The notes: generated by a model not told the origin, from the letters alone. Counted from the stretch's first letter, positions 3,890 through 21,395 are shown. The stretch is DNA of 22,918 bases from a virus (IMGVR_UViG_3300035703_002597:1-22918), one strand, 5' to 3'. Numbers and translations: made by a program.

Positions 3890-4939
3890 ATGAGTCAATA
3901 TACGAAAACTGCACTTGTGCTTGGTGCAGGTGGTTTCATAGGAAGTCATATGGTTCGCAGATTGCGTTCTGAAGGATATTGGGTTCGTGGAGTTGATCTC
4001 AAACTTCCTGAATTTTCAGAGCATGAAGCGCATGAATTTATTATTGGGGATTTGAGAGATGCTTCTTTTGTCGAAAGGGTGATTCAATTTAAAGGATATC
4101 TCGGAAACTTTTATCATTTTATTTCATCAAAATATATTGACACCTTTGATGAAATTTATCAGTTTGCTGCTGATATGGGTGGAGCAGGATTTGTATTCAG
4201 TGGTGAAAATGATGCCGATATTATGCATAATTCTGCTACTATTAATTTGAACGTTCTTGAAGCGCAACGTCAATTAAATGATTTTAAAGAAGTAAATAAA
4301 ACTAAAATTTTCTATTCTGGGTCTGCTTGTATGTATCCGGAGCACAATCAACTTGACCCAGATAATCCCGATTGTCGTGAAGAATCTGCATATCCGGCAA
4401 ATCCAGACTCTGAATATGGTTGGGAAAAATTATTCTCAGAACGTCTTTATTTTGCTTATCATCGCAACTATAATATTCCTGTACGTGTTGCTAGGTATCA
4501 TAATATCTTTGGACCAGAAGGAACTTGGGAAGGGGGTAGAGAAAAAGCACCTGCAGCAATCTGCCGTAAAGTGGCCTATTTACCATCCGAAGGGGGAACA
4601 ATTGAAGTTTGGGGTGATGGTAAGCAAACTCGCTCATTCCTTTATATTGATGAGTGTATTGAAGCAACTCGTCGCCTGATGCAGTCTGATTTTATTGGTC
4701 CAGTAAATATTGGATCTGAGGAAATGGTTACAATTAATCAACTTGTGGATACTGCCTCTAAAGTTGCTAATAAAAATGTAGAAAAACAACATATTCTTGA
4801 TGCTCCTCTCGGTGTTCGTGGGCGTAATTCAAATAATGATGTAGTGCGTAGAGAACTTGGTTGGGATTATTCCCAATCTCTCGAAGATGGGATTCGTAAG
4901 ACTTATAGTTGGATTTGTACCCAAATAAATTCAAAATAA
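3890..4939 (+). CDS. GDP-mannose 3,5-epimerase-like NAD-dependent epimerase
   Basis: 349 residues of the extended SDR fold. The NAD loop GAGGFIG is at 12-18 and YGWEK gives catalytic Y176 and K180. The diagnostic GDP-mannose 3,5-epimerase blocks are present: SGSACMYPE with C147, GGREKAPAA with K219, and GVRGRNS at 308-314. C147, Y176, K180 and K219 match the plant enzyme's catalytic set with a constant offset of two. The expected reaction is GDP-D-mannose to GDP-L-galactose (and GDP-L-gulose). It is the first gene of the cluster, after a terminator and possible promoter. A 60-base line of the gene (4321-4380) counts 28 G+C, well above the interior of the cluster. Alternatives such as a generic NDP-sugar epimerase are less likely. 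Confidence 0.85.
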   Translation: MSQYTKTALVLGAGGFIGSHMVRRLRSEGYWVRGVDLKLPEFSEHEAHEFIIGDLRDASFVERVIQFKGYLGNFYHFISSKYIDTFDEIYQFAADMGGAGFVFSGENDADIMHNSATINLNVLEAQRQLNDFKEVNKTKIFYSGSACMYPEHNQLDPDNPDCREESAYPANPDSEYGWEKLFSERLYFAYHRNYNIPVRVARYHNIFGPEGTWEGGREKAPAAICRKVAYLPSEGGTIEVWGDGKQTRSFLYIDECIEATRRLMQSDFIGPVNIGSEEMVTINQLVDTASKVANKNVEKQHILDAPLGVRGRNSNNDVVRRELGWDYSQSLEDGIRKTYSWICTQINSK

Positions 4940-7104: not shown

Positions 7105-7615
7105 TGTTTGTATAGATGAAATATCCAGAATAACTAGACCAAACTTGGTTGAAATTGGAAATCATGTTGCTATTGATTTTGGATTTGTCTGCACTACACA
7201 ATTAAAAATAGGGGATTATGTTCATATATCACCTCATGTTTCTGTCATTGGTGGTGCTCATGGTAAATTAGAAGTTGAAGATTTTTGTTTTATTTCTACA
7301 GGAGCAAGAGTGATTTGCTCTTCTGAGAAATTTATGGGTGATGGATTGGTTGGACCATTTATACCTGAAGAATGCAAAGATATTATCCTTCGGGGAACAG
7401 TAAAACTCGAAAGATTTTCTGGAATGTGTGCAAATTCTATAATAATGCCAGGTGTTACCTTAGCAGAAGGATCTGTGTTAGGTGCTAATTCTTTTCTTAA
7501 AGAATCGACAGAACCTTGGGGAATTTATGCGGGTAGCCCTGCTAAGTTGATTAAAAAGAGAAGAAGTGATATAATTTATAATAATGCTAAAAAAATGGGA
7601 TATGTTTATGAGTAA
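7085..7615 (+). CDS. Hexapeptide-repeat acyltransferase
   Basis: 176 residues from ATG 7085 (MKSTGIDVCIDEIS); an in-frame ATG at 7067 and an earlier one at 7025 would only extend it into the preceding gene. The protein is built of left-handed beta-helix repeats: VEIGNHVAID, LKIGDYVHIS, VSVIGGAHGK, SIIMPGVTLAEGSVLGANS, then the typical AGSPAKLIKKR exit. Such enzymes transfer acetyl or other acyl groups from acyl-CoA to sugars. A loop around residues 85-105 (FMGDGLVGPFIPEE) resembles the acceptor loop of maltose/galactoside acetyltransferases. With the adjacent aminotransferase it could N-acylate an amino sugar; O-acylation is equally possible. Confidence 0.8.
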   Translation: MKSTGIDVCIDEISRITRPNLVEIGNHVAIDFGFVCTTQLKIGDYVHISPHVSVIGGAHGKLEVEDFCFISTGARVICSSEKFMGDGLVGPFIPEECKDIILRGTVKLERFSGMCANSIIMPGVTLAEGSVLGANSFLKESTEPWGIYAGSPAKLIKKRRSDIIYNNAKKMGYVYE

Positions 7616-8201
7616 CTTTGATGTAGTCACTGAGCTTGAATCTAAAGTTGCAGAATTTTTTGGATCTCCATATGCTGTTGCCGTTGATTGTTGCACTCAT
7701 GGAGTTGAACTGTGTCTTCGATATGAAAATGTAAAGAAAATTACGGTCCCAGTGAGAACTTATATTTCTATTCCTTTTCTCGCTACAAAACTTAATTTGG
7801 AGTGGGAGTGGGACGAGACCGTATGGGATGATTATTATTACTTAGGTGATACAAAAATTATTGATGCTGCTGTTCTTTGGAAAAAAAATAGTTATATTCC
7901 AAAAACTTATATGTCTCTTAGTTTTCAATTTCAAAAGCATTTAAGCCTTGGTAGGGGTGGAATGATTTTATTAGATGACTTGGATGCTAAAAATGCTCTT
8001 AAAAAAATGTCATATGATGGTAGGGAGCATGGTATTCCATGGAGAACTCAAAATATAAGTACCATGGGATATCATTATTATATGACCCCAGAAACAGCAC
8101 AGTTAGGGTTGGATAAACTAGATGCTGCTATAAATTCAGAACCTAGAAAATGGGTTTACACTGATTGGCCAGATTTAAGAGAAATGGACGTATTCAAATG
8201 A
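7608..8201 (+). CDS. Compact DegT/DnrJ-type PLP aminotransferase
   Basis: 197 residues from ATG 7608 (GGGA at 7597-7600 upstream), about half the usual 370-400. The large-domain landmarks are kept in order: FFGSPYAVAVDCCTHG near the cofactor phosphate site, IIDAAV with D86 where the PLP-ring Asp lies, SLSFQFQKHLSLGRGG with K110 as the PLP lysine, GREHG, and MTPETAQLGLDKL in place of the usual MSELQAALG motif. Everything after that, the whole small domain, is absent. The family transfers an amino group from glutamate to a 3- or 4-keto nucleotide sugar. A second protein with the same compact layout lies at 15587-16621, so this is not a simple truncation. It starts before the acyltransferase gene ends and its stop overlaps the next ATG. 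Confidence 0.72.
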   Translation: MSNFDVVTELESKVAEFFGSPYAVAVDCCTHGVELCLRYENVKKITVPVRTYISIPFLATKLNLEWEWDETVWDDYYYLGDTKIIDAAVLWKKNSYIPKTYMSLSFQFQKHLSLGRGGMILLDDLDAKNALKKMSYDGREHGIPWRTQNISTMGYHYYMTPETAQLGLDKLDAAINSEPRKWVYTDWPDLREMDVFK

Positions 8202-9061
8202 TAGGATTTAACGAACTCGGACGAAAAGGGTGGTTGGGAAACCAAATGTTTCAGTATGCTTCATTACGGGGTATTGCTGCGAATAGAGGGTATGATTTTT
8301 GTGTTCCTCCAAATGACCATACTCGAATTCATAACTATTCTCTTTTCGAATGTTTTGAATTGACTAATTGTAGTAATATTGGGTATATTAATGCTCAAAC
8401 TTATTACGCCGATACCACCGATTTACCTCATTCATGTTGTTTTGAATTCAGTGAAAAACTTTTTAATGAGTGTCCAGATAATGTAAATATTAATGGATTT
8501 CTTCAAACGGAAAAATATTTTAAACATATTGAAAGTAGCATAAAAGAAGACTTTACTTTTAAGAAAGATTATCTTGAACCATGTATTGAGTTTATATCTC
8601 AGTTTAGTGAAAGACCTTTGTTTTTACACGTAAGAAGAAATGACTATGTGAAGCATCCAGATTTTCATTATAATCACTCTGTAGAATATTATATTGAATC
8701 TTTAAAATATTTTGATGATGATCTAGAAGTTTTAATTTTTTCTGATGATATGGAATGGTGTAAGCAGCAAGAATTCTTTAATCAAGATAGATTTTATTTT
8801 TCAGAATCAACTGATAGATTTAATAATGTTGTTCCAGATTCTGTTCATACTCAACCAGCTTTAATTCCATTTGTAGATCTTTGTTTGATGTCATTGTGCA
8901 ATGGTGCTATTATTCCTAATAGTACTTTGAGTTGGTGGGGATCTTGGTTGCAAAAAGATAGGGATAGAAGTATCATTTGTCCAACTCCAGACAAATGGTT
9001 TGGACCACAGTATCCAGTAAATACAAAAGATATTTGCCCAGAAAATTGGATTAGGGTGTAA
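8198..9061 (+). CDS. GT11-family glycosyltransferase (alpha-1,2-fucosyltransferase-like)
   Basis: 287 residues from ATG 8198, which overlaps the preceding TGA; an in-frame ATG 33 bases earlier is not favoured because MIGFNELG plus GNQMFQYA (14-21) is the natural N-terminus. The family signature HVRRNDY (144-150), EVLIFSDDMEWC and DLCLMSLCNGAII...STLSWWGSWL are all present. GT11 enzymes transfer L-fucose from GDP-fucose in alpha-1,2 linkage, usually to galactose, making an H-antigen-like terminus. No GDP-fucose pathway is visible in the window, so the donor may come from the host, from outside the window, or be GDP-L-galactose. A second GT11 is at 11721-12566. Confidence 0.88.
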   Translation: MIGFNELGRKGWLGNQMFQYASLRGIAANRGYDFCVPPNDHTRIHNYSLFECFELTNCSNIGYINAQTYYADTTDLPHSCCFEFSEKLFNECPDNVNINGFLQTEKYFKHIESSIKEDFTFKKDYLEPCIEFISQFSERPLFLHVRRNDYVKHPDFHYNHSVEYYIESLKYFDDDLEVLIFSDDMEWCKQQEFFNQDRFYFSESTDRFNNVVPDSVHTQPALIPFVDLCLMSLCNGAIIPNSTLSWWGSWLQKDRDRSIICPTPDKWFGPQYPVNTKDICPENWIRV

Positions 9062-9063
9062 AG

Positions 9064-9795
9064 ATGAGTAGATTAACTGTTATTTTACCTTGCGCTGGTG
9101 AGGGGTCGAGATTATCTTTACCCTATTCTAAAGAAGTTTTTTCTATTGAAAAAAATAAGTCTTTGATAGATTATTCTTTTGATTTATTTCAAGATTATGG
9201 CAGAAAAGATGTTGAATTTGTAATTACAATTAATGAAAAAAAGTTAGATTTAATTAACTATCTTAGCAAATATAAAAGTAGATTTAATATTAGTTTTACT
9301 TTTTTTAATCCTAATGAAACTGAGTATACTGGATCTATTAAAAGTGCAAAGCATCTTTTTGGGGACAAAAATTTAGTTCTTCTTCCAGATACATTTTTAA
9401 AAATGAAATCTCACCAAGATATTATTGATTTGATTTCTGATAGTTTGTTTGAAACTGGATTTACATTTTTCTATAAAAATGAGAATAGTGGTGAAATGTT
9501 GAAGACTAAAGGAGCATTGAACATTTCCGAAGATGGATTAGTCTTAGATTATAGTGATAAACCAGAATCTAACTTTGAATCTTATAATGCTTTTTGGACT
9601 GCATTTGCTTTTAAAAAAAGAGTTTTTGATAGTTGTATCGAGTTTATGGAAAAATCAACTTTGAGACATCGTGTTTCGGTAGATGAAATTCAAAAAACAC
9701 CAATATACAAATCCAAAGCTATAGAAGTGGATAGATATGTGGATTTAGGTACTTGGTCTGAAGTATATAAGTTTATAAATGAAAATAATAACTGA
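9064..9795 (+). CDS. Sugar-phosphate nucleotidyltransferase (RmlA-like)
   Basis: 243 residues. The N-terminal nucleotide loop is PCAGEGSRL (9-17), followed by SKEVF with the conserved lysine at 23. LLPDTFLKM carries the metal-binding Asp, and the C-terminus has VDLGTWSEV. This is the glucose-1-phosphate thymidylyltransferase / UDP-sugar pyrophosphorylase superfamily, shorter than RmlA (about 290), and the loop departs from the usual GGxGTRL. With rmlB at 16618 it could give dTDP-4-keto-6-deoxyglucose; another NDP-sugar is possible. It overlaps the HAD gene by 17 bases. Confidence 0.75.
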   Translation: MSRLTVILPCAGEGSRLSLPYSKEVFSIEKNKSLIDYSFDLFQDYGRKDVEFVITINEKKLDLINYLSKYKSRFNISFTFFNPNETEYTGSIKSAKHLFGDKNLVLLPDTFLKMKSHQDIIDLISDSLFETGFTFFYKNENSGEMLKTKGALNISEDGLVLDYSDKPESNFESYNAFWTAFAFKKRVFDSCIEFMEKSTLRHRVSVDEIQKTPIYKSKAIEVDRYVDLGTWSEVYKFINENNN

Positions 9796-10357
9796 TTGTG
9801 ATGGAGTTCTCCTTGATTGGGCATACGCATTTGATGTATGGATGTCTGAACTTGGGTATGAGCGATTGGAGAACACAACTCATTTCTATGATCAAAGTGA
9901 TAGATATGGAATAACTCAAGAAGAATCTATAAAGTGTATTCAAAAATTCAATGAATCTGGTTGTGTTGGTTTTATTCCAGCATATAAAGATTCTGTAGAA
10001 TATGTAACTAAATTGGCAAATTTGGGATATCGTTTTGATGTAATCAGTTGTTTAGCACAGGATAAATATTCTCAACATCTTCGAAAAAAAAATTTAGTAC
10101 ATTTATTTGGGAATGTATTTGATTATATTGACTGTGGTATACCTCTCACTGGGGGTAAATATGATTATTTAAAAGAACGGTATAATGGAAAAAAATATTT
10201 CTGGATAGAAGATTCTATATCACATGCAATATCTGGCACAAAAGTTGGATTAAAAAGTGTACTCATGAATCATCCATATAATAAAAAATGGGATGGTTTG
10301 CGAGTAAATAATTGGAAAGAAATTTTTGAACTTATTACAAATGACTCCACATATTGA
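9779..10357 (+). CDS. HAD-family phosphatase, 5'(3')-deoxyribonucleotidase-like
   Basis: 192 residues. The HAD motif I DCDGVLLDW is at the very N-terminus (D6 and D8 catalytic), motif II is around VISCLAQD, a lysine block follows at GKYDYLKERYNGKK, and motif IV is FWIEDS. A helical cap occupies about residues 20-75. The first motif and size resemble small nucleotidases that dephosphorylate (deoxy)nucleoside monophosphates, though sugar-phosphate phosphatases share them. It overlaps both neighbours: 17 bases with the nucleotidyltransferase and about 17 with the purine nucleoside phosphorylase. That position next to deoD favours a role in nucleotide breakdown or salvage. Confidence 0.68.
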   Translation: MKIITDCDGVLLDWAYAFDVWMSELGYERLENTTHFYDQSDRYGITQEESIKCIQKFNESGCVGFIPAYKDSVEYVTKLANLGYRFDVISCLAQDKYSQHLRKKNLVHLFGNVFDYIDCGIPLTGGKYDYLKERYNGKKYFWIEDSISHAISGTKVGLKSVLMNHPYNKKWDGLRVNNWKEIFELITNDSTY

Positions 10358-11030
10358 AGCTCAGAACGGAAGTTATGCGAAAACCGTTCTTATGCCGGGT
10401 GATCCATTAAGGGCAAAGTATATTGCTGAAAATTTTTTAACTGATATTAAGTTGGTAAATTCAGTTAGAAATTGTCTTGGATATACTGGAAGATACAAAG
10501 GAAATTTAGTCTCAGTTCAAGCTAGTGGTATGGGACATGCTAGTCTTGGAATATATGCCCATGAACTTTTTAATTTTTATGATGTTCAGAATATTATTAG
10601 GGTTGGAACATGTGGTGGTATATCCGAAAAAGTAAATGTCGGTGACATTGTAGTTGCTATGACATCTTTTACTGACAGTTCTATTACAGATAATCTAGTT
10701 TCGGGATTTAGATTTTCTCCATGTTGTGATTATAATCTTCTTAAAAATTTCATGAAAGTTTGTCCAGAATCTCACGTCGGTGCAATTTGTTCGAATGATT
10801 ATTTTTACCAGCCTAATATTAATTGGTGGAAAAGTCTTCAAGAGATTGGTGTTTTGGCAGTTGACATGGAGACTACTATGCTTTATAGTCTAGCAATGAG
10901 ATTCTCAAAGTCTGCATTGACTGTTAATCAAGTATCTGATCATTTATCTGGAGGAAAAGTTTATTCTTCGAAAGAGAGAGAAGTTGGACTTAATAAAGTT
11001 ATTGAAAAAGTTTTAGATTCTTTGGAATAA
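10341..11030 (+). CDS. deoD: Purine nucleoside phosphorylase, DeoD type
   Basis: 229 residues from ATG 10341 (an upstream ATG at 10326 adds five residues not seen in the family). It closely follows E. coli DeoD (239 aa): MTPHIEAQNG with H4, VLMPGDPLRAKYIAE with R24, R43, IIRVGTCGG with R87, GVLAVDMET (170-178) for ribose binding, and VNQVSDH with the catalytic D200. The enzyme splits purine (deoxy)ribonucleosides with phosphate to free base and (deoxy)ribose-1-phosphate, in the cytoplasm. A complete active site suggests it works. The gene lies between a HAD nucleotidase-like gene and a probable glycosyltransferase. This is unexpected in a glycan cluster: salvage of host nucleosides and supply of sugar phosphates are both plausible. 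Confidence 0.9.
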   Translation: MTPHIEAQNGSYAKTVLMPGDPLRAKYIAENFLTDIKLVNSVRNCLGYTGRYKGNLVSVQASGMGHASLGIYAHELFNFYDVQNIIRVGTCGGISEKVNVGDIVVAMTSFTDSSITDNLVSGFRFSPCCDYNLLKNFMKVCPESHVGAICSNDYFYQPNINWWKSLQEIGVLAVDMETTMLYSLAMRFSKSALTVNQVSDHLSGGKVYSSKEREVGLNKVIEKVLDSLE

Positions 11031-11033
11031 ATT

Positions 11034-11699
11034 ATGAAAGTTGCAGTTGCATATAAAGGTATTTTGAATGCCAAAAAAATAGAACAAGAAGGTTTAACTG
11101 AAGATACATTTGATTATTGTAAGTTACTTATAGAAAATCATAAGAATCATTTATATGAATTTTTTGATAACTGTGATATAGATTTTTATTTTAGCACCTA
11201 TAATTTGAATCAAGATATAAATTCTTTATATCAATCCGAATTTAATCCCAAAAAATATTTTTATCTAGAAAATTATTTTTTAAGAAATGAGTTAACTTGG
11301 TCAGCTCAACTACGTCATTATCGTAACCTTATTAAGGGTATTAAAGAACAAAATGATGATTATGATTTATTTGTTTTTTCGAGAGTAGACATTAGATTTC
11401 TGAAAAAATTTGAATCATTAAATATAGATTTTTCAAAGTTTAACATTGTTCTTGAACATCCTTCTAAAAATTGTGATGATGCATTTTGGATTTTTCCAAA
11501 AGAATTTTTGAATGCTTTTGAAGATTCTGTTAATCAACTCTTTGCCGATAATAGAATAACCCATGAAATAAATCATGAGTTAACTAAGAGATCTGTTGAC
11601 ATAAATTATATGGTTGATTTTGATAAAAATTTAGGTAAACCGAATGAAGATATTCTTCTTGGACATGATGTGTTTATACCATCGACTTGGGACCAATAA
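11034..11699 (+). CDS. Putative glycosyltransferase-like protein, 221 aa
   Basis: I do not recognise a named family. The N-terminus MKVAVAYKGI is a beta strand as in GT-A folds. YDLFVFSRVDIRF near 110-122 resembles the R-x-D metal/nucleotide motif of some bacterial glycosyltransferases, and CDDAFWIFPKEFL follows as in proteins that position an acceptor. Size and context, three bases after deoD and before a GT11, support a transferase. No signal peptide or membrane segment is seen. The nature of the sugar is unknown. Confidence 0.5.
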   Translation: MKVAVAYKGILNAKKIEQEGLTEDTFDYCKLLIENHKNHLYEFFDNCDIDFYFSTYNLNQDINSLYQSEFNPKKYFYLENYFLRNELTWSAQLRHYRNLIKGIKEQNDDYDLFVFSRVDIRFLKKFESLNIDFSKFNIVLEHPSKNCDDAFWIFPKEFLNAFEDSVNQLFADNRITHEINHELTKRSVDINYMVDFDKNLGKPNEDILLGHDVFIPSTWDQ

Positions 11700-11720
11700 A
11701 TTAAAAATGGATGAATTACT

Positions 11721-12566
11721 ATGATTACTTTTTTACAATTGGGTCAGTATGGAAGACTTGGAAATCAGTTATTCCAGTATGCAGCTTTAAAATCTTTATC
11801 TTTGTGTAGGGGATATGAAATAAAATTGCCGAGAAATATCTATGAAACTTCTTGGCATAGTCAAAAATGTTTACTTTCAAATTTTAATCTTAAATTTTCT
11901 GATCTAGAAAATAATGATCTATACCAATTGAAGACATATGACCAATATAGTTTAACTGGAAGTGGTCAGGCATTCGATCGGAATTTTTTTAACTTAGAAG
12001 ATAATACTAATTTAATCGGATTCTTTCAAAATTTAAAATATTTTGAAGAATATTCTGAGAGTGTAAAAGAAGATTTTAAAATTAAATCTAGTATTGTAGA
12101 ACAATCTGAAAAATATTTAAGGGATAAGTTTTCTCTTAAAAGACCTGTAGTAAGTATTCATGTTAGGAGAGGTGATTATTCAGATGCACAATTTTCGAAT
12201 CAACAATTGATACAAGCGTATATAGAAAAATGTATATCTTATTTTAATGATGAAGTCGACTTTTTATTATTCACCGGTGGATCAAGAGAACCGGGTGAAA
12301 ATAATATTAATGATGTTGAATACTTGAAAGATAATTATCGAAGAACTAACTTTTATTATAGCGAGACGAACAATCCAATGATTGATTTTTCGTTGATGAC
12401 TATGTGTAATCACAATATTATTTCTCATGATAGTACCTTTAGTTGGTGGGCTGCATATTTAAACGACACTAAAGATAGAAAAGTTTTTGCACCTAAAAAT
12501 CCAAGGAGCCTTGATCAAACTATTGAATATGATAATTTTTATCCAGATGATTGGATTCTTTTATAA
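11721..12566 (+). CDS. GT11-family glycosyltransferase (second alpha-1,2-fucosyltransferase-like)
   Basis: 281 residues. GRLGNQLFQYAA (11-22) and HVRRGDY (147-153) match the GT11 GDP-binding motifs even better than the copy at 8198. The C-terminal block CNHNIISHDSTFSWWAAYL aligns with that copy's STLSWWGSWL. Overall the two share the family core but differ widely elsewhere, so they are probably not a recent duplication and may act on different acceptors. The predicted reaction is alpha-1,2 transfer of L-fucose (or a related sugar) from a GDP donor. A promoter begins three bases after the stop. Confidence 0.88.
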   Translation: MITFLQLGQYGRLGNQLFQYAALKSLSLCRGYEIKLPRNIYETSWHSQKCLLSNFNLKFSDLENNDLYQLKTYDQYSLTGSGQAFDRNFFNLEDNTNLIGFFQNLKYFEEYSESVKEDFKIKSSIVEQSEKYLRDKFSLKRPVVSIHVRRGDYSDAQFSNQQLIQAYIEKCISYFNDEVDFLLFTGGSREPGENNINDVEYLKDNYRRTNFYYSETNNPMIDFSLMTMCNHNIISHDSTFSWWAAYLNDTKDRKVFAPKNPRSLDQTIEYDNFYPDDWILL

Positions 12567-12568
12567 AA

Positions 12569-12597
12569 TTGAATAATAATCAAAATCATGTTATAAT
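12569..12597 (+). promoter_or_regulatory. Internal sigma70-type promoter within the glycan cluster
   Basis: TTGAAT (12569-12574), 17-base spacer, TATAAT (12592-12597) lie in one of the few real gaps in the cluster (12567-12618). The expected start is near 12604, about 15 bases before the ATG at 12619. This would let the second half of the cluster be transcribed independently. Confidence 0.65.
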
Positions 12598-12618
12598 TGA
12601 TCAATTGCCTTTAATTTA

Positions 12619-13272
12619 ATGTTTGAGAATATTAAAATACCTAGTAATATAGAAAAAATTTATATTGATGTGGGATTGGCGGCTGATGCCCCACATTCTT
12701 TTAGTTGGTTATCGTCAGATCCAAATAGTTTTGTATTTGGATTTGAGCCTGTAAAAGAAAATTGTAAAAGAGTTTCAACTAAAATTAAGGAACTAGGATT
12801 TAAATCTAGATATAAACTTTATGAGTGTGCAGTAGATAATGTTATCGGTGAACAAATAAAGGACTTTTATGTCACTTGTAATTCTGAAGTTAATGGTGAT
12901 CATGGACAGTCCAGTCTTTTTAAACTAAAAGATGAATTAAAAGAGTCACATGGAACCAAATATTGGGTAGAAAAAACAGTCCCAACAAAGTGCGTAAATT
13001 TATCTGATTTACTTTCTAAAATTGATTGGGAAAGATTCAAAGAAATTACTTGTCTTAAGACTGATACTCAAGGAAATGATTTGAACATTCTTAAATCTAT
13101 TGAAGGATTTTTTGATAAACTTCCTTTGATTTATTGTGAATCATATGCCAATAATCAATATCAAAAAGAGGATGATAATCCTAATATTGTTTATGAATAT
13201 ATGACAAATAATGGATATAGATTGTTTAATTGCAGTATTGATTCTGCTGATCACTATTATCAAAGAGTTTGA
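12619..13272 (+). CDS. FkbM-family SAM-dependent methyltransferase
   Basis: 217 residues. IYIDVGLA begins the Rossmann core, FGFEPVKENCKR is the acidic motif after strand 2, CAVDN follows, and CLKTDTQGNDLNILKS is the hallmark FkbM block. FkbM enzymes O-methylate hydroxyls, often on sugars of surface glycans. It is the first gene after the internal promoter at 12569, with no clear Shine-Dalgarno (the leader is short and AT-rich). A likely role is methyl capping of the glycan. The family assignment is good, the substrate unknown. Confidence 0.82.
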   Translation: MFENIKIPSNIEKIYIDVGLAADAPHSFSWLSSDPNSFVFGFEPVKENCKRVSTKIKELGFKSRYKLYECAVDNVIGEQIKDFYVTCNSEVNGDHGQSSLFKLKDELKESHGTKYWVEKTVPTKCVNLSDLLSKIDWERFKEITCLKTDTQGNDLNILKSIEGFFDKLPLIYCESYANNQYQKEDDNPNIVYEYMTNNGYRLFNCSIDSADHYYQRV

Positions 13273-13277
13273 TTTGT

Positions 13278-14234
13278 ATGAGAATTGTAGCGGACGGTTC
13301 TGGTGACTATCCAGATGGACCAACAGTAAAAATTAATCTAACTCGTTTCAATCATCCTGATAATGAAACAGTTCTTTTTTATGGGTATAATTCTGTCTTT
13401 AATCAAGATTTAAGAGAAGAGTATAAAAATTACAAAAAGAAAATTCTTCTTAATCTTTGGATGCCTACGGAATATAATGGAGACCCACCTATTTTATCAG
13501 GAATGACTGACTATCAACCTGATGGAAAATTTGTAGAATATTTTGATGTTGTTTATTCTATTTGCCCATATACAATTGATTGGATAAATCAAATGACTGG
13601 GGATAACCGTTATAAGTTTATTTGGCATCCTTTTGCATCTCCAAGAGATTATAATGGACCTGAACTTTCATATCAAAAAATATATGATGTTTGCTATTTT
13701 GGAGGAATACATGGTAGATACCATGAAGAAATAGCGCATGTTGTGAGAGAGTATGGGGGCAGAATCTCTTACATTTACCCTAATCAATATACAACAGACG
13801 TTGGATTAACTCATCATGGTAAAATGCAAATGGCTGCAAATTCTAAAATAACAGTAGTCATTAATCAATGTCCATTGACAAGTAATCATATTAATTCTAT
13901 TACACGATACAAAAATTGGAGTCAAAACAAAGCATTTGATGGTTTAAATTTTGATATTCCTACGGTTCCTCAATATAAATGTAGAACTGCAGAAGCCGCA
14001 TATGCTCGTAGTGTAATTCTTGTCAAACGTGATCAGTGGAATATTATTGAAAACTTTTTTGATTTAGATGAGTTTGTTTATTTCGATGATATGGAAGATT
14101 TAAGAACTAAAATAAATTATATTTTATCTCATTATGACGAGTATCAACCTATGCTAGAAAAGGCATATTTGAGATCGTTAAATATGGATGGTGAGGGAAC
14201 ATTTAAAAAAATTAAGGAGAATGAAAATGTTTGA
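13278..14234 (+). CDS. Glycosyltransferase with a group-1 type C-terminal domain
   Basis: 318 residues from ATG 13278 (a TTG nine bases earlier is an alternative). The N-terminus MRIVADGSGDYPDG is glycine-rich like a GT-B nucleotide loop. From about residue 210 it shows the pattern of GT-B transferases with a glycosyl-transferase-1-like C-terminus: KAFDGLNFDIP, RTAEAAYARSVILVK, FDLDEFVYFDD and ILSHYDEYQPM. That block binds the nucleotide sugar. Overlaps the next methyltransferase gene by eight bases. The sugar is unknown. Confidence 0.65.
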   Translation: MRIVADGSGDYPDGPTVKINLTRFNHPDNETVLFYGYNSVFNQDLREEYKNYKKKILLNLWMPTEYNGDPPILSGMTDYQPDGKFVEYFDVVYSICPYTIDWINQMTGDNRYKFIWHPFASPRDYNGPELSYQKIYDVCYFGGIHGRYHEEIAHVVREYGGRISYIYPNQYTTDVGLTHHGKMQMAANSKITVVINQCPLTSNHINSITRYKNWSQNKAFDGLNFDIPTVPQYKCRTAEAAYARSVILVKRDQWNIIENFFDLDEFVYFDDMEDLRTKINYILSHYDEYQPMLEKAYLRSLNMDGEGTFKKIKENENV

Positions 14235-14769
14235 TACTACATCAAGGAAAAAGTTTGTTGCTTCGTTTCCTGATTCTTTTTTAACAGGCGCAGAAGTTGG
14301 AGTTTCAAGTGGTGATTTTTCAAAAAATATTTTGTCAGTCACTAAAAATATAAAGTTGTATTGTGTTGATATTTGGGAGCAAAATTATCAACTACCCGAT
14401 CCCGAAAGATCATATAATGAAACTTATAACAATCTTATTCCTTTTGGGCAAGAAAGATTTGAATTGATTAGAGAGGGATCTCCAAATTCTGCCTCAAAAT
14501 TTGAAGATGAATTTTTTGACTTCGTTTATATTGATGCGGACCATCATTATGAACCGGTTTTGGAAGACCTCAAAGCTTGGTATCCAAAAATTAAAAAAGG
14601 TGGTGTATTCTTTGGACACGATTATAATAGTCCTTGGGACGGGGTAGTTAAAGCTGTTGATGAATTTTTTGCAGAAAAAAATTATGAAGTTGGAGTAATT
14701 TCTTCGGTTGGTTATGCTGATGGAGATCAAGATGGTGGATCTCAGAGTTGGTACATTATTAAGAGGTAA
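14227..14769 (+). CDS. Class I SAM-dependent methyltransferase (Methyltransf_24-like)
   Basis: 180 residues from ATG 14227, chosen because AAGGAG (14214-14219) is seven bases upstream; in-frame ATGs at 14188 and 14221 fit less well. Motif I is GAEVGVSSGDFS, then YCVDIW, then the family block DFVYIDADHHYEPVLEDL, and GGVFFGHDY. Such enzymes methylate hydroxyls, often of sugars or macrocycles. The aspartates and HH pair of YIDADHHY could bind a metal. A second methyltransferase beside the FkbM-type one suggests a glycan with two methylated positions. Confidence 0.75.
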   Translation: MFDTTSRKKFVASFPDSFLTGAEVGVSSGDFSKNILSVTKNIKLYCVDIWEQNYQLPDPERSYNETYNNLIPFGQERFELIREGSPNSASKFEDEFFDFVYIDADHHYEPVLEDLKAWYPKIKKGGVFFGHDYNSPWDGVVKAVDEFFAEKNYEVGVISSVGYADGDQDGGSQSWYIIKR

Positions 14770-14779
14770 TTGGAATAAG

Positions 14780-15583
14780 ATGATTGAACACGATTATTTA
14801 AAAGATTTTGATAAATTAAAGTCAAAATTAATCGAAGGGGAAAACTTTGCTTTTTTAAGATTTTCTGATGGTGAAGGATTTATTCTTTACAACCAATACT
14901 TAGAGTTAAGTGACAGTGGATACAATTTAGATGGATCTCGTGGATATGCTTATTATGGAAAAGAAGAACATAAATTATTCGATCCAGATAAGCATTCATT
15001 TTATAGGGATAGGTTGATTGAGTCTTTGGAGTATGTTAGTGATAACTACTACAAAGGTCTTCCTATGAAGGATGCCTGCCCTGCTTTTAGTGGAATTTTT
15101 GATGAGATTGTTGAAAATGCAGGTGGGGATAGTGAATATTTAACTTTTGCTAATCTTTGGAATAATGCAAACTATCCAAGATTTATTGAGGAAATTGTGC
15201 CAATTTTTTCTGATAAAAAAGTTGTGATGATTGTGAATGAGTGTGCTGACATTGAGAAGTTACCATTTCCAGTTGTGAAGGATTTTAGAGTCGGATCTAA
15301 CTGTTTTATTGATAACTATGATATAATAGATGATATTAAAACTTATGTAACTGATAACGACATCAAAAATCATGTCTTTCTAGTTTCAGCAGCTAGTCTA
15401 AGCAATGTGATTATTCATCAATTGTATGAAATGAATAATCAAAATACTTATATTGATATTGGTAGCACACTTAATCCAATGATGAATATGACTGGTTGGA
15501 AGGGAACTAGAGTTTACTTAAATCAATATTGGAATCCTAGTGGAGACCAATCTCAATTAAAACTTGTAGATATTTGGCATTAA
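14780..15583 (+). CDS. Probable GT-D-fold glycosyltransferase
   Basis: 267 residues from ATG 14780; an upstream in-frame ATG at 14708 would overlap the methyltransferase gene by 62 bases and is not favoured. Near the N-terminus FAFLRFSDGEGFI (23-35) matches the R-[FY]-x-DGE signature of GT-D enzymes, where the Asp-x-Glu (D30, E32) binds metal and the sugar nucleotide. VVMIVNE and VFLVSAASLSN look like the later strands of that fold, and YIDIGSTLNP is near the C-terminus as in the family. The assignment is by motif only. It is followed two bases later by the GNAT-aminotransferase fusion gene. Confidence 0.6.
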   Translation: MIEHDYLKDFDKLKSKLIEGENFAFLRFSDGEGFILYNQYLELSDSGYNLDGSRGYAYYGKEEHKLFDPDKHSFYRDRLIESLEYVSDNYYKGLPMKDACPAFSGIFDEIVENAGGDSEYLTFANLWNNANYPRFIEEIVPIFSDKKVVMIVNECADIEKLPFPVVKDFRVGSNCFIDNYDIIDDIKTYVTDNDIKNHVFLVSAASLSNVIIHQLYEMNNQNTYIDIGSTLNPMMNMTGWKGTRVYLNQYWNPSGDQSQLKLVDIWH

Positions 15584-15586
15584 TTT

Positions 15587-16621
15587 ATGAAACTGATACC
15601 TAACAATCAAGAACATTGGCAGTTTATTCGAGAACTTAGATACCATCCTAAAAATATTTCTGGATTTGTAACTTCTGATAAAGTTACTTATGAAGAGCAA
15701 ATAGAATATATGAAAAAATATAATGACAATTATTATATTTGTTTAGATGGAAATAATACTCCTGTGGGATTCATTGGAGAAATTGGTGGTGATATTCGTT
15801 TAGCTGTAGACCCAGAACAAAAAAATAAAGGTATTGGTAAATTTATGTTGGATGAGTTTATGAAGACTCATCCATTTGCGACTGCCAAAGTTTTGCATGA
15901 TAATATAGCAAGTCTCAGAACATTTTATTCTTGTGGATTCATTTCTCACAAATTTGATGGAACGTTTTTTTATCTTACAAAAAATGAGCACGGATATTAT
16001 AAAATCAAACATAATCCATATAAAATTGTAAGAATGTTTGAAGAATCTATAGCTGATTATACAGGAGCTCCTTATGCAGTATCTGTAGATTCTTGTACAA
16101 ATGCACTGTTTTTATGTTGTAAGTATTTAAATGTCGCGCAGGTTTCTATTCCCTCTAAAACATACTTATCAGTTCCACAATCAATTATTCAATCTGGTGG
16201 TACTGTTGTTTGGGATGAGAGTAGAAATAATTGGACAGGCACATATCAATTAGAACCTTATCCTATTTGGGACTCTGCTAAAAGATTAACGTCGAGTATG
16301 TATATTCCAGGATCTTTTATGTGCCTGTCATTTCATATTAAAAAAACCTTGAAAATTGGAAAGGGTGGTATGATTTTGACAGATAATCCAGATGCTGTAG
16401 ATTGGTTTAAGAAATCTAGGTATGAAGGTAGAAGTGAAGTTTTATATAAGGAAGACAATATTAAAACAATAGGATGGAATATGTATATGACACCACAACA
16501 AGCCGCACATGGTCTTTGTTTATTGCAAAATTATCCTTTACATGTTCCTGATCTTGGTGAAGATAATGGATATTTAGATTTGAGGAATTATGATTTATTT
16601 TCTGAAATTGGTGCAGTATGA
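15587..16621 (+). CDS. GNAT acetyltransferase fused to a compact DegT-type aminotransferase
   Basis: 344 residues in two parts. Residues 1-130 are a GNAT N-acyltransferase: RLAVDPEQKNKGIGKFML (71-88) is the acetyl-CoA loop and SLRTFYSCGF (109-118) the usual C-terminal motif. Residues 145-344 resemble the compact aminotransferase at 7608: YTGAPYAVSVDSCTNA, WDSA with D229, SFHIKKTLKIGKGG with PLP lysine K253, YEGRSE, and MTPQQAAHGL. The small domain is again missing. One polypeptide could aminate a keto-sugar and then N-acylate it, a pairing seen as separate enzymes in amino-sugar pathways. It overlaps rmlB by four bases, which supplies a 4-keto sugar. Confidence 0.78.
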   Translation: MKLIPNNQEHWQFIRELRYHPKNISGFVTSDKVTYEEQIEYMKKYNDNYYICLDGNNTPVGFIGEIGGDIRLAVDPEQKNKGIGKFMLDEFMKTHPFATAKVLHDNIASLRTFYSCGFISHKFDGTFFYLTKNEHGYYKIKHNPYKIVRMFEESIADYTGAPYAVSVDSCTNALFLCCKYLNVAQVSIPSKTYLSVPQSIIQSGGTVVWDESRNNWTGTYQLEPYPIWDSAKRLTSSMYIPGSFMCLSFHIKKTLKIGKGGMILTDNPDAVDWFKKSRYEGRSEVLYKEDNIKTIGWNMYMTPQQAAHGLCLLQNYPLHVPDLGEDNGYLDLRNYDLFSEIGAV

Positions 16622-17508
16622 AATTTTTAGTTACTGGTGGTAGAGGTTTTATAGGAAGTCATTTTGTTGAACGTTGTTTGGATGAAGGGCATAAAGTTAT
16701 AGATATTGATTCTGTAACTTATGCTGCTAACGAAAAACTTCCTTGGGATAATCATAAAAATTATAAACATGTAAAAGAAGACATATGTGATTTAAAACAT
16801 TTACCATCTGCAGATATTTTGGTTAATTTTGCTGCTGAAAGTCATGTTGATAATTCTATTATTCAACCCAATATTTTTGTAAAGACTAATGTGCTAGGTA
16901 CACAAAATCTTCTAAATTTAGTTAGAGGTAAAACTTATAATAGACCTTTATTTGTTCATATAAGCACTGATGAAGTTTATGGTGATATTGTTAACGGTTC
17001 TTTTGATGAGAATAGTAAATTATCACCTTCTAATCCATACTCAGCATCAAAAGCTGCGGCGGAGATGTTAGTTGTTTCTTATGCTAGAACTTATCAGATG
17101 GAGTATCAAATTTGTAGAAGTTCTAATAATTATGGTGCTAGACAATATCCAGAAAAACTTATTCCGAAAATTATAGAATGTTTGGAAGAGAATAAATCAA
17201 TACCAATTCATGGTGATGGATCTTATGTAAGAGATTGGACATATGTAAAAGATAATGTAGATGGAATTTATAAGGTTTGTTTTTCTGAAGAAAAAAATGA
17301 AGTATGGAATATATCATCTAATAATTGTTTAAGTAATTTGCAGGTAGTTGATTTTGTATCAAAATGGATGAATAAGACTCCAAAAGTAGATTTTATTGAG
17401 AATAGACATGGACAAGATATTCGATATTCAATTTCTTCTAGTAAAATTATTGAAAAATTGCAATGGAATCCTGAGCATAAATCCCTCTACAATTTCACCT
17501 CTAAATAA
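16618..17508 (+). CDS. rmlB: dTDP-glucose 4,6-dehydratase
   Basis: 296 residues (family about 330-355). The dehydratase marks are clear: TGGRGFIG (7-14), DSVTYAAN, NFAAESHVDNSI, HISTDEVYGD with T117, D118 and E119, YSASKAA with Y141 and K145, SSNNYGARQYPEKLIP and a C-terminal RHGQDIRY block. It converts dTDP-glucose to dTDP-4-keto-6-deoxyglucose with bound NAD+, the branch point to rhamnose, Qui3N/Fuc3N, Qui4N and related sugars. The C-terminal region is somewhat short. It follows the GNAT-aminotransferase by a four-base overlap. No rmlC or rmlD is seen, which favours an amino-sugar product over rhamnose. Confidence 0.9.
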   Translation: MKFLVTGGRGFIGSHFVERCLDEGHKVIDIDSVTYAANEKLPWDNHKNYKHVKEDICDLKHLPSADILVNFAAESHVDNSIIQPNIFVKTNVLGTQNLLNLVRGKTYNRPLFVHISTDEVYGDIVNGSFDENSKLSPSNPYSASKAAAEMLVVSYARTYQMEYQICRSSNNYGARQYPEKLIPKIIECLEENKSIPIHGDGSYVRDWTYVKDNVDGIYKVCFSEEKNEVWNISSNNCLSNLQVVDFVSKWMNKTPKVDFIENRHGQDIRYSISSSKIIEKLQWNPEHKSLYNFTSK

Positions 17509-17548
17509 TTTAAATTAAATTTATTGTATTAAAACTGACTTGAGTATT

Positions 17549-18301
17549 ATGGCAAAAAGTGTTACTGTTGTTCTTAATGGGTATAAGAGGAATAACTTAA
17601 GAGAGCAAGTAGAAGCGATTCGAAATCAAACTGTTCCTGTAAAAGAAATTTTTTATTGGCAGAATACTGTTCCTGGATTTTCATATGATGAAGATACTTA
17701 TTGTGAATTAAATGCAGCACTGAGTAACTATAATTATGGTGTCTGGGCAAGATTTGCATATGCATTAAATGCAAGAACAGATTATGTTTGTGTGTTTGAT
17801 GATGATACAATTCCAGGAACTCGTTGGTTGGAAAATTGTATCAACACTTATGAAACACACCCAGGTTTACTTGGTGGCATTGGACTTTGGTTTAAAAATA
17901 AAAATTACGAACTAGAAGTCCTTGAAAACGGAGATCCTGCTAGATTTGGGTGGCATGTAAATAACGATTCTACCGTTCAGGTTGATATTGTTGGACACTC
18001 TTGGTTTTTTGCAAGAGACCTTCTTTCTGTTTTTTGGAGAGAACTTCCAGAAGAGCATTGGACTATGTTGTGTGGGGAAGATATTCATTTTTCATATATG
18101 CTTCAGAAATACACTGATTTGAAAACCTGGGTTCCTCCACATCCTTCTGATGACACTTCAATGTGGAGTAGTTTAAAGGCTCTTCAATATGGTGGTGATC
18201 ATTTGGCAACTGCCAATACAACGGTTCAAACTGGAGAGATGGCAAAGTACCTATCATACTGTGTTGATAATGGATTTAAACTTCTGAAGGATTTGAAATG
18301 A
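17549..18301 (+). CDS. Glycosyltransferase family 2
   Basis: 250 residues from ATG 17549; a TTG nine bases upstream is possible but less likely. GT-A fold: VTVVLNGYKRNNLREQVEAI is the family-2 N-terminus, VCVFDDDTIPG (81-90) contains the metal-binding DxD, and WTMLCGEDIHFSYML the late acidic ED motif. It inverts at the anomeric carbon, making a beta linkage from a nucleotide sugar. It is the first gene after a 40-base gap (17509-17548) with no convincing promoter, and overlaps the next gene by four bases. Confidence 0.85.
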   Translation: MAKSVTVVLNGYKRNNLREQVEAIRNQTVPVKEIFYWQNTVPGFSYDEDTYCELNAALSNYNYGVWARFAYALNARTDYVCVFDDDTIPGTRWLENCINTYETHPGLLGGIGLWFKNKNYELEVLENGDPARFGWHVNNDSTVQVDIVGHSWFFARDLLSVFWRELPEEHWTMLCGEDIHFSYMLQKYTDLKTWVPPHPSDDTSMWSSLKALQYGGDHLATANTTVQTGEMAKYLSYCVDNGFKLLKDLK

Positions 18302-19176
18302 TTAATATTTTTTATTCTGAATCATATTTCAACTACACAAATAGAATGTGTGGACCTAAAAAAGTTGTATTTAATTTGATAGAATCTTTAGAACAAGAAA
18401 AAGTTCCATATTCTATTAATGAAGATATTTACGAATATAACCTTTTACTTCAGTATGATGCAATTGGATATGAAAAACATGAAAAATTGGAACATGATAG
18501 TTGTATCATTGGACCACAATTTTGGACATTTGATTCAAATCCTTATGGGCAGTTTTTAATAAACAATCCGCAGTATTATAAAAAACTAGTTGCTCCATCT
18601 TATTGGGTTGAAAATTTACTGGTTGAAAAATTAAATGTCCCGCAAAATAAAGTATGTATTTGGCCAGCTGGTATAAAAGATTTTTCACATTTAAAGAAAG
18701 AAACAAGTTCAATTGATTGTTTAATTTATTTCAAATCTAGGTCTAATCAAGATCTTTCTTTAGTCGAAGAATTTTTAAAGGATAAAAATATTACATATAA
18801 AGTTGTAAAATATGGGACATATTCTCAAGAAGAATTTTATGAAGAAATTTCTAATGTAAAATTTTGTTTTATTCTTGATCATACTGAGAGTCAGGGAATT
18901 GCAATTCAAGAAATGATGTCTGCAAATATTCCACTTCTTGTTTGGGATGTTAAATTTTGGGATCATCAGGGTGAGCAATATAAATTACCTGCAAGTTCTG
19001 TTCCATATTGGAATTCTGAATGTGGTGAAAAATTTTATGAATATTCGGAACTTGAAGACACTTTTGAAAAATTTTATGATAACATTGATAAGTATAATCC
19101 GAAAAAACTTATTGATTCTGAGTTATCTTATAAAGTAACAGTTGAAAAAATTTTGATGGCATTTAAAGAAAAATGA
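18298..19176 (+). CDS. GT4-like glycosyltransferase
   Basis: 292 residues. The N-terminus has MCGPKKVVFNLIESL, a GT-B glycine/lysine loop, and VAPSYWVENLLVEKLNVPQNKVCIWPAGI is typical of the inter-domain region. The C-terminal sugar-nucleotide motif is ESQGIAIQEMMSANIPLLVWD, an E-x7-E pattern with E195ish and a second Glu seven residues on. This is a retaining or inverting GT-B enzyme, shorter than the usual 350-400 residues. Overlaps neighbours by four bases on both sides. The substrate cannot be read from sequence. Confidence 0.72.
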   Translation: MINIFYSESYFNYTNRMCGPKKVVFNLIESLEQEKVPYSINEDIYEYNLLLQYDAIGYEKHEKLEHDSCIIGPQFWTFDSNPYGQFLINNPQYYKKLVAPSYWVENLLVEKLNVPQNKVCIWPAGIKDFSHLKKETSSIDCLIYFKSRSNQDLSLVEEFLKDKNITYKVVKYGTYSQEEFYEEISNVKFCFILDHTESQGIAIQEMMSANIPLLVWDVKFWDHQGEQYKLPASSVPYWNSECGEKFYEYSELEDTFEKFYDNIDKYNPKKLIDSELSYKVTVEKILMAFKEK

Positions 19177-19865
19177 AAATTTGCATTTTAACAATAGCAA
19201 CAAATAAGTATCTTCAATTTGTTGAAAAATTATACGATGATATTGCAGAAAGATTTATACCTGGTTCCGAAATTAATTGCCTTCTTTTTACGGATCACGA
19301 AGTAGAAACTTCTGACAATGTTAAAGTTCATTATATTGATCATGAGCCATGGCCAATGCCAACTCTTAAGAGATATAATTATTTTATCAAGGAAAAAGAC
19401 TTTATTCTTCAGCACGACTATTGTTTTTACTTTGATGCTGATATGAGGATTGATAATCCTGTTGGAGAAGAAGTTTTGGCTGATGGTGTTGTTGCAACTA
19501 AGCATCCATATCAATCTTTTCATTCGATTCGGGATATGTCTTATGATAGGAATCCTGAATCTCTTGCATATATTCCTTATGGTGAAGGTAAAACATACTA
19601 TGCTGGGGGATTTAATGGTGGAAAGACTGATAAATTTATTGAAATGGCAGAAACTATTTCTGAACGAGTTAATAAAGATTTGGAAAGGGGTATCATTGCT
19701 CTGTGGCATGATGAAAGTCATATGAATAGATACTTGATTGATAACCCACCCGCTTTAGAATTAACACCTTCGTATTGTTATGCTGAAGAATTTTACGGGA
19801 CAGACTATCCCCACGAACCAAAAATTATTGCACTGAGGAAAAATCACAATGAACTTAGATCTTAG
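19173..19865 (+). CDS. GT6-family glycosyltransferase (ABO blood-group transferase-like)
   Basis: 230 residues of the family that includes the human A/B transferases. FYFDADM gives the DxD (D88, D90). SLAYIPYGEG, TYYAGGFNGG and ALWHDESHMNRYL (176-188, E181 as candidate nucleophile) line up with the vertebrate enzyme; PEYL becomes PSYC. At the donor-specificity positions, Leu/Met266 and Gly/Ala268 in humans, this protein has Ala144 and Gly146. GT6 enzymes add Gal or GalNAc in alpha-1,3 linkage, in A/B synthesis to a Gal carrying alpha-1,2 fucose. Bacterial members often replace DxD by NxN, but this phage form keeps it. It overlaps the next gene by 17 bases. Confidence 0.9.
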   Translation: MKICILTIATNKYLQFVEKLYDDIAERFIPGSEINCLLFTDHEVETSDNVKVHYIDHEPWPMPTLKRYNYFIKEKDFILQHDYCFYFDADMRIDNPVGEEVLADGVVATKHPYQSFHSIRDMSYDRNPESLAYIPYGEGKTYYAGGFNGGKTDKFIEMAETISERVNKDLERGIIALWHDESHMNRYLIDNPPALELTPSYCYAEEFYGTDYPHEPKIIALRKNHNELRS

Positions 19866-20493
19866 AGAAATTCCTGCTGTTTATTTAAATTTGCAACAGC
19901 ATACTGAAAAAAATGAGAGTATGCAAAGTCTTCTTAAAGAATGTGGATTTAAAAATATTATTCGTGTTGAGGGTGTTGCTCGACCAGATAATACAGTTGC
20001 TGGTTGTTCCGCTGCTCATTATAAGGGATTATGTGAGATTGATACTCCATTTATTCTTTTTGAAGATGATTGTGTGGTTAAAAATTTTAGACCAGAAGTT
20101 GAAGTTCCTGATGATGCCGATGCAGTTTATCTTGGCATTTCATCTTGGGGGAGAATGAATGGGCATTCTGGTCCATATCTTCAATATGAACATGTAAAGG
20201 ATGATTTGTATAGAGTACATAATATGCTTGGTGGACATGCAATCTTGTATTTGACTGAAGAGTATGTTAAGATGTGTCAAAGAATTGCATATCACGCAGG
20301 ATATGTAATTGAAGATTATCAAGATATTGGATTTGCTGAAATTCAAAGGTGGTTCAATGTTTATGCTTTTGATGATCCATTTTTCTTCCAAACCAGTGGA
20401 TATCATGGAACTGTAAATCCATTGACAAGTTATCCCACTGAAGAATGCTTTACTTATAATAAAACTTATTTTCTACCTGAGAGAGTTGTATGA
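19849..20493 (+). CDS. GT25-like glycosyltransferase
   Basis: 214 residues. VYLNLQQHTEKNESM fits the family-25 N-terminus (the usual INLDRxxxR is modified), GCSAAHYKGL is its signature, and FILFEDDCVV its acidic EDD motif. NMLGGHAILYLTEEY and VIEDYQDIG follow as in LPS galactosyltransferases. The family transfers galactose or glucose to LPS core or other glycans. It lacks the longer C-terminus of many members. Overlaps the GT6 gene (17 bases) and the next epimerase gene (four bases). Confidence 0.72.
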   Translation: MNLDLREIPAVYLNLQQHTEKNESMQSLLKECGFKNIIRVEGVARPDNTVAGCSAAHYKGLCEIDTPFILFEDDCVVKNFRPEVEVPDDADAVYLGISSWGRMNGHSGPYLQYEHVKDDLYRVHNMLGGHAILYLTEEYVKMCQRIAYHAGYVIEDYQDIGFAEIQRWFNVYAFDDPFFFQTSGYHGTVNPLTSYPTEECFTYNKTYFLPERVV

Positions 20494-21395
20494 TCAAATC
20501 ACTAGTTACTGGTGGTGCTGGATTTATTGGTTCGAACCTTGTTGATCGTTTGCTTGAAATGGGTCATGAGGTTGTTGTAATTGATAATGAATATTCTGAT
20601 GCTCATGATCAATTTTATTGGAATGACAAGGCACAAAACTATAAGTATGATATTCGTGATTATGAAAGCACACGTCCACTCTATGATGGAGTTGATTATG
20701 TGTTTCATATCGCAGCAGAGGCACGTATTCAACCTGCTATCGAAAATCCCATCGAAGCAGTTAGCATTAATTCTGTTGGTACTGTGACCGTTCTTCAATG
20801 TGCTCGTGAGGCAGGAGTGAAACGTGTGATGTATTCTTCCACATCTTCTGGATATGGAATGAATCAAACACCTAATATTGAAACTCAACCTGATGATTGT
20901 TTGAATCCTTATTCGGTTTCAAAAGTTAATGGTGAAAAATTGTGTAAGATGTACACTAACCTTTATGGTCTTCAAACAGTTTGCTTCCGTTACTTTAATG
21001 TCTATGGGGAACGCCAACCTCTACGTGGACAGTATGCTCCTGTAATCGGTATTTTCCTTCGTCAGAGAGCAGCAGGAGAACCTCTGACCGTTGTTGGTGA
21101 TGGAAACCAACGTCGTGACTTTACTTATGTTGGTGATGTTGTGAAGGCAAATATTATGGCAGCAATCTCAAATCCAGATCCAGAAGCATTCGGTCAGGTT
21201 TATAATGTTGGAACCGGTACTAATTATTCAATTAATCAGATTGTTAGAATGATAAATCATGAAAAAATTAATATTACTCCTCGTCCTGGTGAAGCAAGGG
21301 TAAGTCTTGCAAATAATCAAAAACTTCGTAAAACTTTTGGTTGGGAACCAACAGTCAAATTAGAAGATTGGATCTTAAAGCAATTGAAAAAATAG
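20490..21395 (+). CDS. UDP-glucose/GlcNAc 4-epimerase-like SDR
   Basis: 301 residues. TGGAGFIG (7-14) binds NAD, SSTSSGYG supplies the Ser/Thr, and YSVSK gives Y141 and K145. YFNVYGERQ and DGNQRRDFTYVGDVV are the substrate-domain landmarks of GalE/WbpP-type epimerases. The product might be UDP-Gal or UDP-GalNAc, the donors a GT6 would need; this is inference. The gene is richer in G+C than its neighbours (30 of 60 in 21001-21060), with a preference for codons such as CGT and GGT. The promoter of nadE begins inside its last codons. Confidence 0.8.
   Translation: MIKSLVTGGAGFIGSNLVDRLLEMGHEVVVIDNEYSDAHDQFYWNDKAQNYKYDIRDYESTRPLYDGVDYVFHIAAEARIQPAIENPIEAVSINSVGTVTVLQCAREAGVKRVMYSSTSSGYGMNQTPNIETQPDDCLNPYSVSKVNGEKLCKMYTNLYGLQTVCFRYFNVYGERQPLRGQYAPVIGIFLRQRAAGEPLTVVGDGNQRRDFTYVGDVVKANIMAAISNPDPEAFGQVYNVGTGTNYSINQIVRMINHEKINITPRPGEARVSLANNQKLRKTFGWEPTVKLEDWILKQLKK

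Follow-up and report, generated by a model that had tools for sequence, protein, structure and literature searches.

A glycan gene cluster of a T4-like marine cyanophage with GT11 and GT6 glycosyltransferase genes and a possible blood-group-A-type cap

Does a marine phage carry the enzymes for a glycan of the ABO blood-group kind? The question is raised by a 22,918-nt virus record (IMGVR_UViG_3300035703_002597:1-22918; the whole stretch analysed, hereafter the window), for which a preliminary description had proposed that the full logic of an A/B-type cap is present in one phage. The nearest relative of the window is a 215-kb linear contig, G001 (IMGVR_UViG_3300046804_003469), with 78-82% DNA identity across the shared stretches, and G001 was classified as a cyanomyovirus because it encodes a T4-type Gp23 capsid gene. 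The phage-record relatives of the GT6 and GT11 families are mainly from Synechococcus and Prochlorococcus phages, and the GT6/GT11 genes of the window are situated in a glycan cluster of a T4-like marine cyanophage. By gene calling and Pfam search, both GT11 genes and the GT6 gene were located on the plus strand, together with the following genes.

3890..4939, plus strand: GDP-mannose 3,5-epimerase (GME) homologue, predicted source of GDP-L-galactose/GDP-L-gulose (PDB matches and residue fingerprint)
8198..9061, plus strand: GT11a, alpha-1,2-fucosyltransferase-like (PF01531, E 8.9e-18; phrog_2644, E 4e-96)
11721..12566, plus strand: GT11b, a second, divergent GT11 with the motif HVRRGDY (PF01531, E 1.9e-18)
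16618..17508, plus strand: dTDP-glucose 4,6-dehydratase-like SDR (TIGR01181, E 4.5e-95, below the curated cut-off)
17540..18301, plus strand: GT2-like glycosyltransferase, opening the overlapping run with GT6 (PF00535, E 5e-5; next gene overlapped by 4 bp)
18298..19176, plus strand: glycosyltransferase-like protein (4-bp overlap with GT6; 48% identity to PSSM2_266)
19173..19865, plus strand: GT6, predicted alpha-1,3-N-acetylgalactosaminyltransferase, A-synthase-like (PF03414, E 8.3e-34)
19849..20493, plus strand: phrog_24091, GT25-like glycosyltransferase (PF01755 matches within the family, hhalign, adjacency to GT6)
20490..21395, plus strand: UDP-hexose/N-acetylhexosamine 4-epimerase-like SDR, predicted supply of UDP-GalNAc/UDP-Gal (GalE and WbpP matches)

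The genes around GT11 and GT6 are tightly packed and often overlap. Between the GT2 gene at 17540 and the epimerase gene at 20490, consecutive genes share 4 to 17 bp, and thus GT6 is very probably co-transcribed with the GT2, GT-like, GT25-like and SDR epimerase genes. Upstream of the glycan cluster are three tRNA genes (Val, 586-657; Ser, 1407-1492; Pro, 2809-2884) and a Dps/ferritin-like gene (686-1120), while an NAD synthase gene (21435-22190), 81% conserved in G001, follows directly after it; several further cyanophage loci also carry NAD synthase close to GME. Two short DegT-type aminotransferase-like proteins are encoded, one of 205 aa (7584-8201) and the other a part of about 200 aa that follows a GNAT domain in a fusion protein (15587-16621). 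Both keep a motif resembling that of the PLP lysine (FQFQKHLSLGRGG and FHIKKTLKIGKGG) within a length well below the about 370 aa of full-length DegT, and the conservation of both in G001 (81-86%) speaks against gene remnants in decay. A 142-aa protein lacking any Pfam match (6676-7104) is 100% identical to its G001 counterpart over 140 residues, even though the DNA is 90% identical and the neighbouring proteins are 80-88% identical, indicating unusually strong purifying selection.

The presence of two GT11 genes and one GT6 gene, as described at the outset, was confirmed by the Pfam matches and by the folds. GT11a carries the HxRR motif of the family in the form HVRRNDY, and its AlphaFold2 model (pLDDT 89) gave by Foldseek, among the matches listed, only GDP-fucosyltransferases (FUT8, NodZ, POFUT1 and plant FUT1); a PDB sequence search for a GT11 structure had yielded chance matches only. 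We describe GT11a as alpha-1,2-fucosyltransferase-like; an enzyme of this kind would take GDP-L-fucose as donor and the 2-OH of galactose as acceptor, with GME offering another possible donor. In the family tree, GT11a falls into a large group whose members are found in further GT6 loci, while GT11b, with few close homologues, is divergent and stands outside the GT6-associated clade. Of the two genes originally assigned to an ABO-like cluster, one is thus of the GT6-locus type, and if either is the partner of GT6, it would be GT11a. G001 carries a third GT11 (contig 1, 17689-18585), for which the match spans an internal TGA, representing a frameshift, the gene end or a sequencing error.

The GT6 protein scored 117 bits against PF03414 (curated cut-off, 25), and its best matches were Bacteroides ovatus GT6a (BoGT6a, a histo-blood-group A synthase; E 1e-40), followed by the human ABO transferases (E 6e-28). 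The AlphaFold2 model (pLDDT 91) showed the GT-A fold of GT6 enzymes and superimposed on BoGT6a (4ayj) with a TM score of 0.92 and on human GTA/GTB with scores of 0.83-0.90. After alignment with 81 phage GT6 proteins, the DxD, AGG and WHDESH motifs, claimed beforehand, were indeed located at D88-A-D90, A144-G-G146 and W178-H-D-E-S-H183, respectively, with E181 as the catalytic Glu. D88, D90, H111 and W178-H-D-E181 are invariant across the 81 proteins. The contacts to the acceptor galactose are kept as H111 (GTA His233), S123 (Thr245), W178 (Trp300) and E181 (Glu303); the Ser at position 123 is conservative, Ser or Thr being present in 79 of the 81. Equivalents of human Lys346 and His348 were also found, but the overall identity to GTA/GTB is 28-29%, and the phage enzyme differs in the lack of a membrane stem and in Tyr113 and Ala204 at positions 235 and 326, respectively. 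BoGT6a shares the AGG donor motif, WHDE and equivalents of His122 and Lys231, but is metal-independent (NxN) with Gly at position 235, whereas DxD is present in all 81 phage proteins, implying that the phage enzyme is metal-dependent.

As to the donor, the equivalent of Gly268, provided by A144-G145-G146, is conserved in 79 of the 81 phage proteins. Gly at position 266 or 268 has been proposed as needed for GalNAc transfer (PMC4692239), and BoGT6a, carrying the same AGG, produces A-antigen products (PMC3961637). UDP-GalNAc is thus a likelier donor than UDP-Gal, so that we predict an A-synthase-like GalNAc transferase; of the A/B-type cap first suggested, the A-type is favoured over the B-type. 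The 4-epimerase proposed at 20490 was in good agreement with our analysis, in that the gene product is a UDP-sugar 4-epimerase-like SDR matching GalE (4zrm, E 2e-51) and WbpP (1sb8, E 2e-41). It has Ser at the position that in WbpP we take to be the gatekeeper admitting N-acetyl sugars, and this Ser is compatible with a predicted supply of UDP-GalNAc but not diagnostic, because Thermotoga maritima GalE likewise has Ser.

GT6 and GT11 are linked well beyond the window. Of 54 viral loci with GT6 and a length of at least 15 kb, 50 carried GT11, as did 32 of the 36 left after reduction to non-redundant loci (GT6 mutually less than 90% identical). Among 56 control loci anchored on dTDP-glucose dehydratase, GT11 was found in 5 and GT6 in none; the resulting p-value (3e-15) should not be taken literally because the significance is inflated by shared cassette ancestry, which accounts for part of the co-occurrence, and by the origin of the control loci from other phage lineages. 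UGDH, nucleotidyltransferase and GT2 were rejected as control anchors, the 2-13 loci being too few and mostly the same cassettes. For the 68 GT6 loci with GT11, both genes were always on the same strand (68/68), with GT11 upstream in 56 and a median distance of 2.1 kb. The co-occurrence in the non-redundant set, always on the same strand, indicates that the pairing is not by chance. In the reverse direction, only 8 of 46 GT11-anchored loci carried GT6. GT6 is thus nearly always accompanied by GT11 while GT11 mostly occurs without GT6, as the ABO order predicts if GT6 needs the product of GT11. A GT6 match was detected in only one of 151 sampled picocyanobacterial host genomes, and thus the cap would be brought by the phage. 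This sole host match (L430; host genome G127, contig 1, 149538-149972) could be phage-derived or independently acquired.

Taken together, we propose that the cluster is a cyanomyovirus glycan-decoration cassette yielding a blood-group-A-type branched cap, a proposal that we regard as evenly poised between right and wrong. GT11a would add an alpha-1,2-linked L-fucosyl-type sugar onto a terminal beta-galactose, and the metal-dependent GT6 would then add alpha-1,3-GalNAc onto the same galactose, using UDP-GalNAc supplied by the 20490 epimerase. GT11 would take as donor either GDP-L-fucose of the host or the GDP-L-galactose that the phage GME would produce. The cap would be placed on a glycan not started by the phage, most likely the lipopolysaccharide or another surface glycan of the host during infection, and less likely a virion protein.

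The origin of the GDP-sugar is the step at which the full logic initially claimed is not borne out for this phage. Neither GMD nor GDP-fucose synthase (GFS) was detected in the window, which is a fragment, or in the 215-kb linear contig of G001. Instead, the SDR at 3890 gave GME as all of its best PDB matches (including 8sg0/2c59; E about 1e-81 to 1e-79), compared with about 1e-18 for GDP-fucose synthase, and it carries the GME fingerprint of SAC147, YxxxK, GREK219 and GVRGR. The two enzymes are told apart by the Cys acid, the Lys base and an Arg in place of His/Lys (PMC8787198). From these residues, the 3890 SDR is a GME rather than a fucose enzyme, with GDP-L-galactose as the predicted product; G001 also carries a GME with the diagnostic residues. 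With GME present and GMD/GFS absent from these sequences, the sugar in 2-O linkage may be either L-galactose or fucose supplied by the host. The use by GT11a of GDP-L-galactose in place of GDP-L-fucose is unlikely in our judgement, although several lines of evidence point to it. Of 42 GME-anchored loci (at least 15 kb each), 32 carry GT11 but only one GFS, with GT11 often located close downstream of GME; the GT11 clades follow the GME versus fucose type of the locus, with 11 changes against 47 after shuffling; and several fucosyltransferases, including an Arabidopsis alpha-1,2-fucosyltransferase, accept GDP-L-Gal in vitro (PMC8787198). On the other hand, GMD was found in 89 and a strong GFS match in 88 of the 151 picocyanobacterial host genomes (about 59%), so that host GDP-fucose could suffice for the phage, and the GME product could feed another enzyme. 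The mutual exclusion of GME and GFS was rejected as proof, since the pooled value (p = 6e-7) is confounded by locus anchoring: the two genes coexist in GT11-anchored loci, where the exclusion is gone, and p = 0.17 was obtained for the non-redundant GT6 loci. Because the apparent avoidance is lost once the least biased or the non-redundant loci are considered, the genomic data decide for neither fucose nor L-galactose. We consider it quite unlikely that in certain cyanophages L-fucose beneath the GalNAc added by GT6 is replaced by L-galactose of the phage GME, giving an analogue of the A antigen.

The ABO-like order of GT11 followed by GT6 is supported by the near-exclusive occurrence of GT6 with GT11 and by the A-synthase-type donor and galactose-contacting residues, and is unsupported on the side of GDP-fucose genes. 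It would also fail if GT6 acts on unfucosylated galactose, as do alpha-1,3-galactosyltransferase and Forssman synthase, while the GT11 proteins decorate other positions or chains and the linkage reflects only a shared glycan cluster. We think this unlikely, even though Tyr113 of the phage enzyme aligns with GTA Gly235/GTB Ser235. This bulky residue could exclude a 2-O-fucosylated acceptor or alter the acceptor of GT6, and thus calls for caution as to its dependence on alpha-1,2-fucose. Tyr is found in 50 of the 81 phage proteins, and alpha-1,3-galactosyltransferase, the user of unfucosylated acceptors, presumably has Trp at this position; a few GT6 loci are without GT11 in reach, and two GT11 genes per cluster imply further acceptors. 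In contrast, H111 agrees with His233 of GTA/GTB, where alpha-1,3-galactosyltransferase presumably has Gln, Gly is present at the 235 position in 30 of the 81 phage proteins and in BoGT6a, and the association with GT11 is very strong. Residue 235 was rejected as a marker of the donor type, because Tyr and Gly both occur with GME and with GMD/GFS cassettes.

The galactose to be capped under the proposed A-type scheme may also be provided by the phage. The gene for phrog_24091 directly follows GT6 in 49 of 80 loci, and the family is a remote GT25, with PF01755 matched by 9 of 22 members (best E 3e-6) and an hhalign value of 97.9% against the GT25 of P-SSM2. As GT25 includes beta-galactosyltransferases for lipopolysaccharide, phrog_24091 is a candidate for making the galactosyl acceptor of GT11 and GT6. 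Searches of P-SSM2 and G001 gave neither an initiating sugar-phosphate transferase (PF02397) nor a flippase (PF01943), and therefore the cassette would decorate either a glycan begun by the host or proteins. Glycosylation of virion proteins such as tail fibres or capsid, rather than host surface glycans, would agree with this lack of lipid-linked initiation and with the location of P-SSM2 tail-fibre genes in the same 40-kb region, but is improbable, since glycan start and export are possible by host enzymes, and modification of lipopolysaccharide or the cell surface is the published view of such cyanophage genes (PMC9602691).

This kind of cassette is already known, GT11 and GT6 being annotated in the cultured Prochlorococcus phage P-SSM2 (AY939844, PSSM2_257-271), and the window adds two GT11 genes and GME instead of GMD/GFS. 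In P-SSM2, GT11, GT4-like, GT6, GT25-like and 4-epimerase genes form one strand-wise block, in the order GMD and GFS, then GT11, GT4-like, FkbM, GT6, GT25-like and epimerase; GMD and GFS likewise adjoin GT11 in several other GT6 contigs. Identity to the window is 48-68% over GT4-like, GT6, GT25-like and 4-epimerase (60% between the 20490 epimerase and PSSM2_270). PSSM2_266, the homologue of the protein at 18298..19176, lies directly after the P-SSM2 GT11 and has a weak Glyco_transf_4 match. P-SSM2 has one GT11 with GMD and GFS, in contrast to the two GT11 genes and GME in the part of the phage seen here. For the cultured Synechococcus phage S-SCSM1, compared by its published description, the text consulted reports GME and an alpha-1,2-fucosyltransferase as in the window but with GMD and GFS beside GME, both routes thus being present, and makes no mention of GT6 (PMC9602691). 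GT6 genes in two cyanophages have been mentioned (PMC3961637), and no statement of the GT11-GT6 A-antigen logic for cyanophages was found in the literature searched.

If the order of GT11 followed by GT6 is true, A-type caps would be a recurrent and nearly phage-only trait of cyanophages, of use in studying how phages alter the surfaces of their hosts, for instance to keep out competing phages or grazers. The difference between GME and GMD/GFS cassettes offers a simple testable prediction of the L-sugar used, and the phage GT6 enzymes, as small, stem-free proteins of the DxD type, are of interest beside the human ABO transferases.
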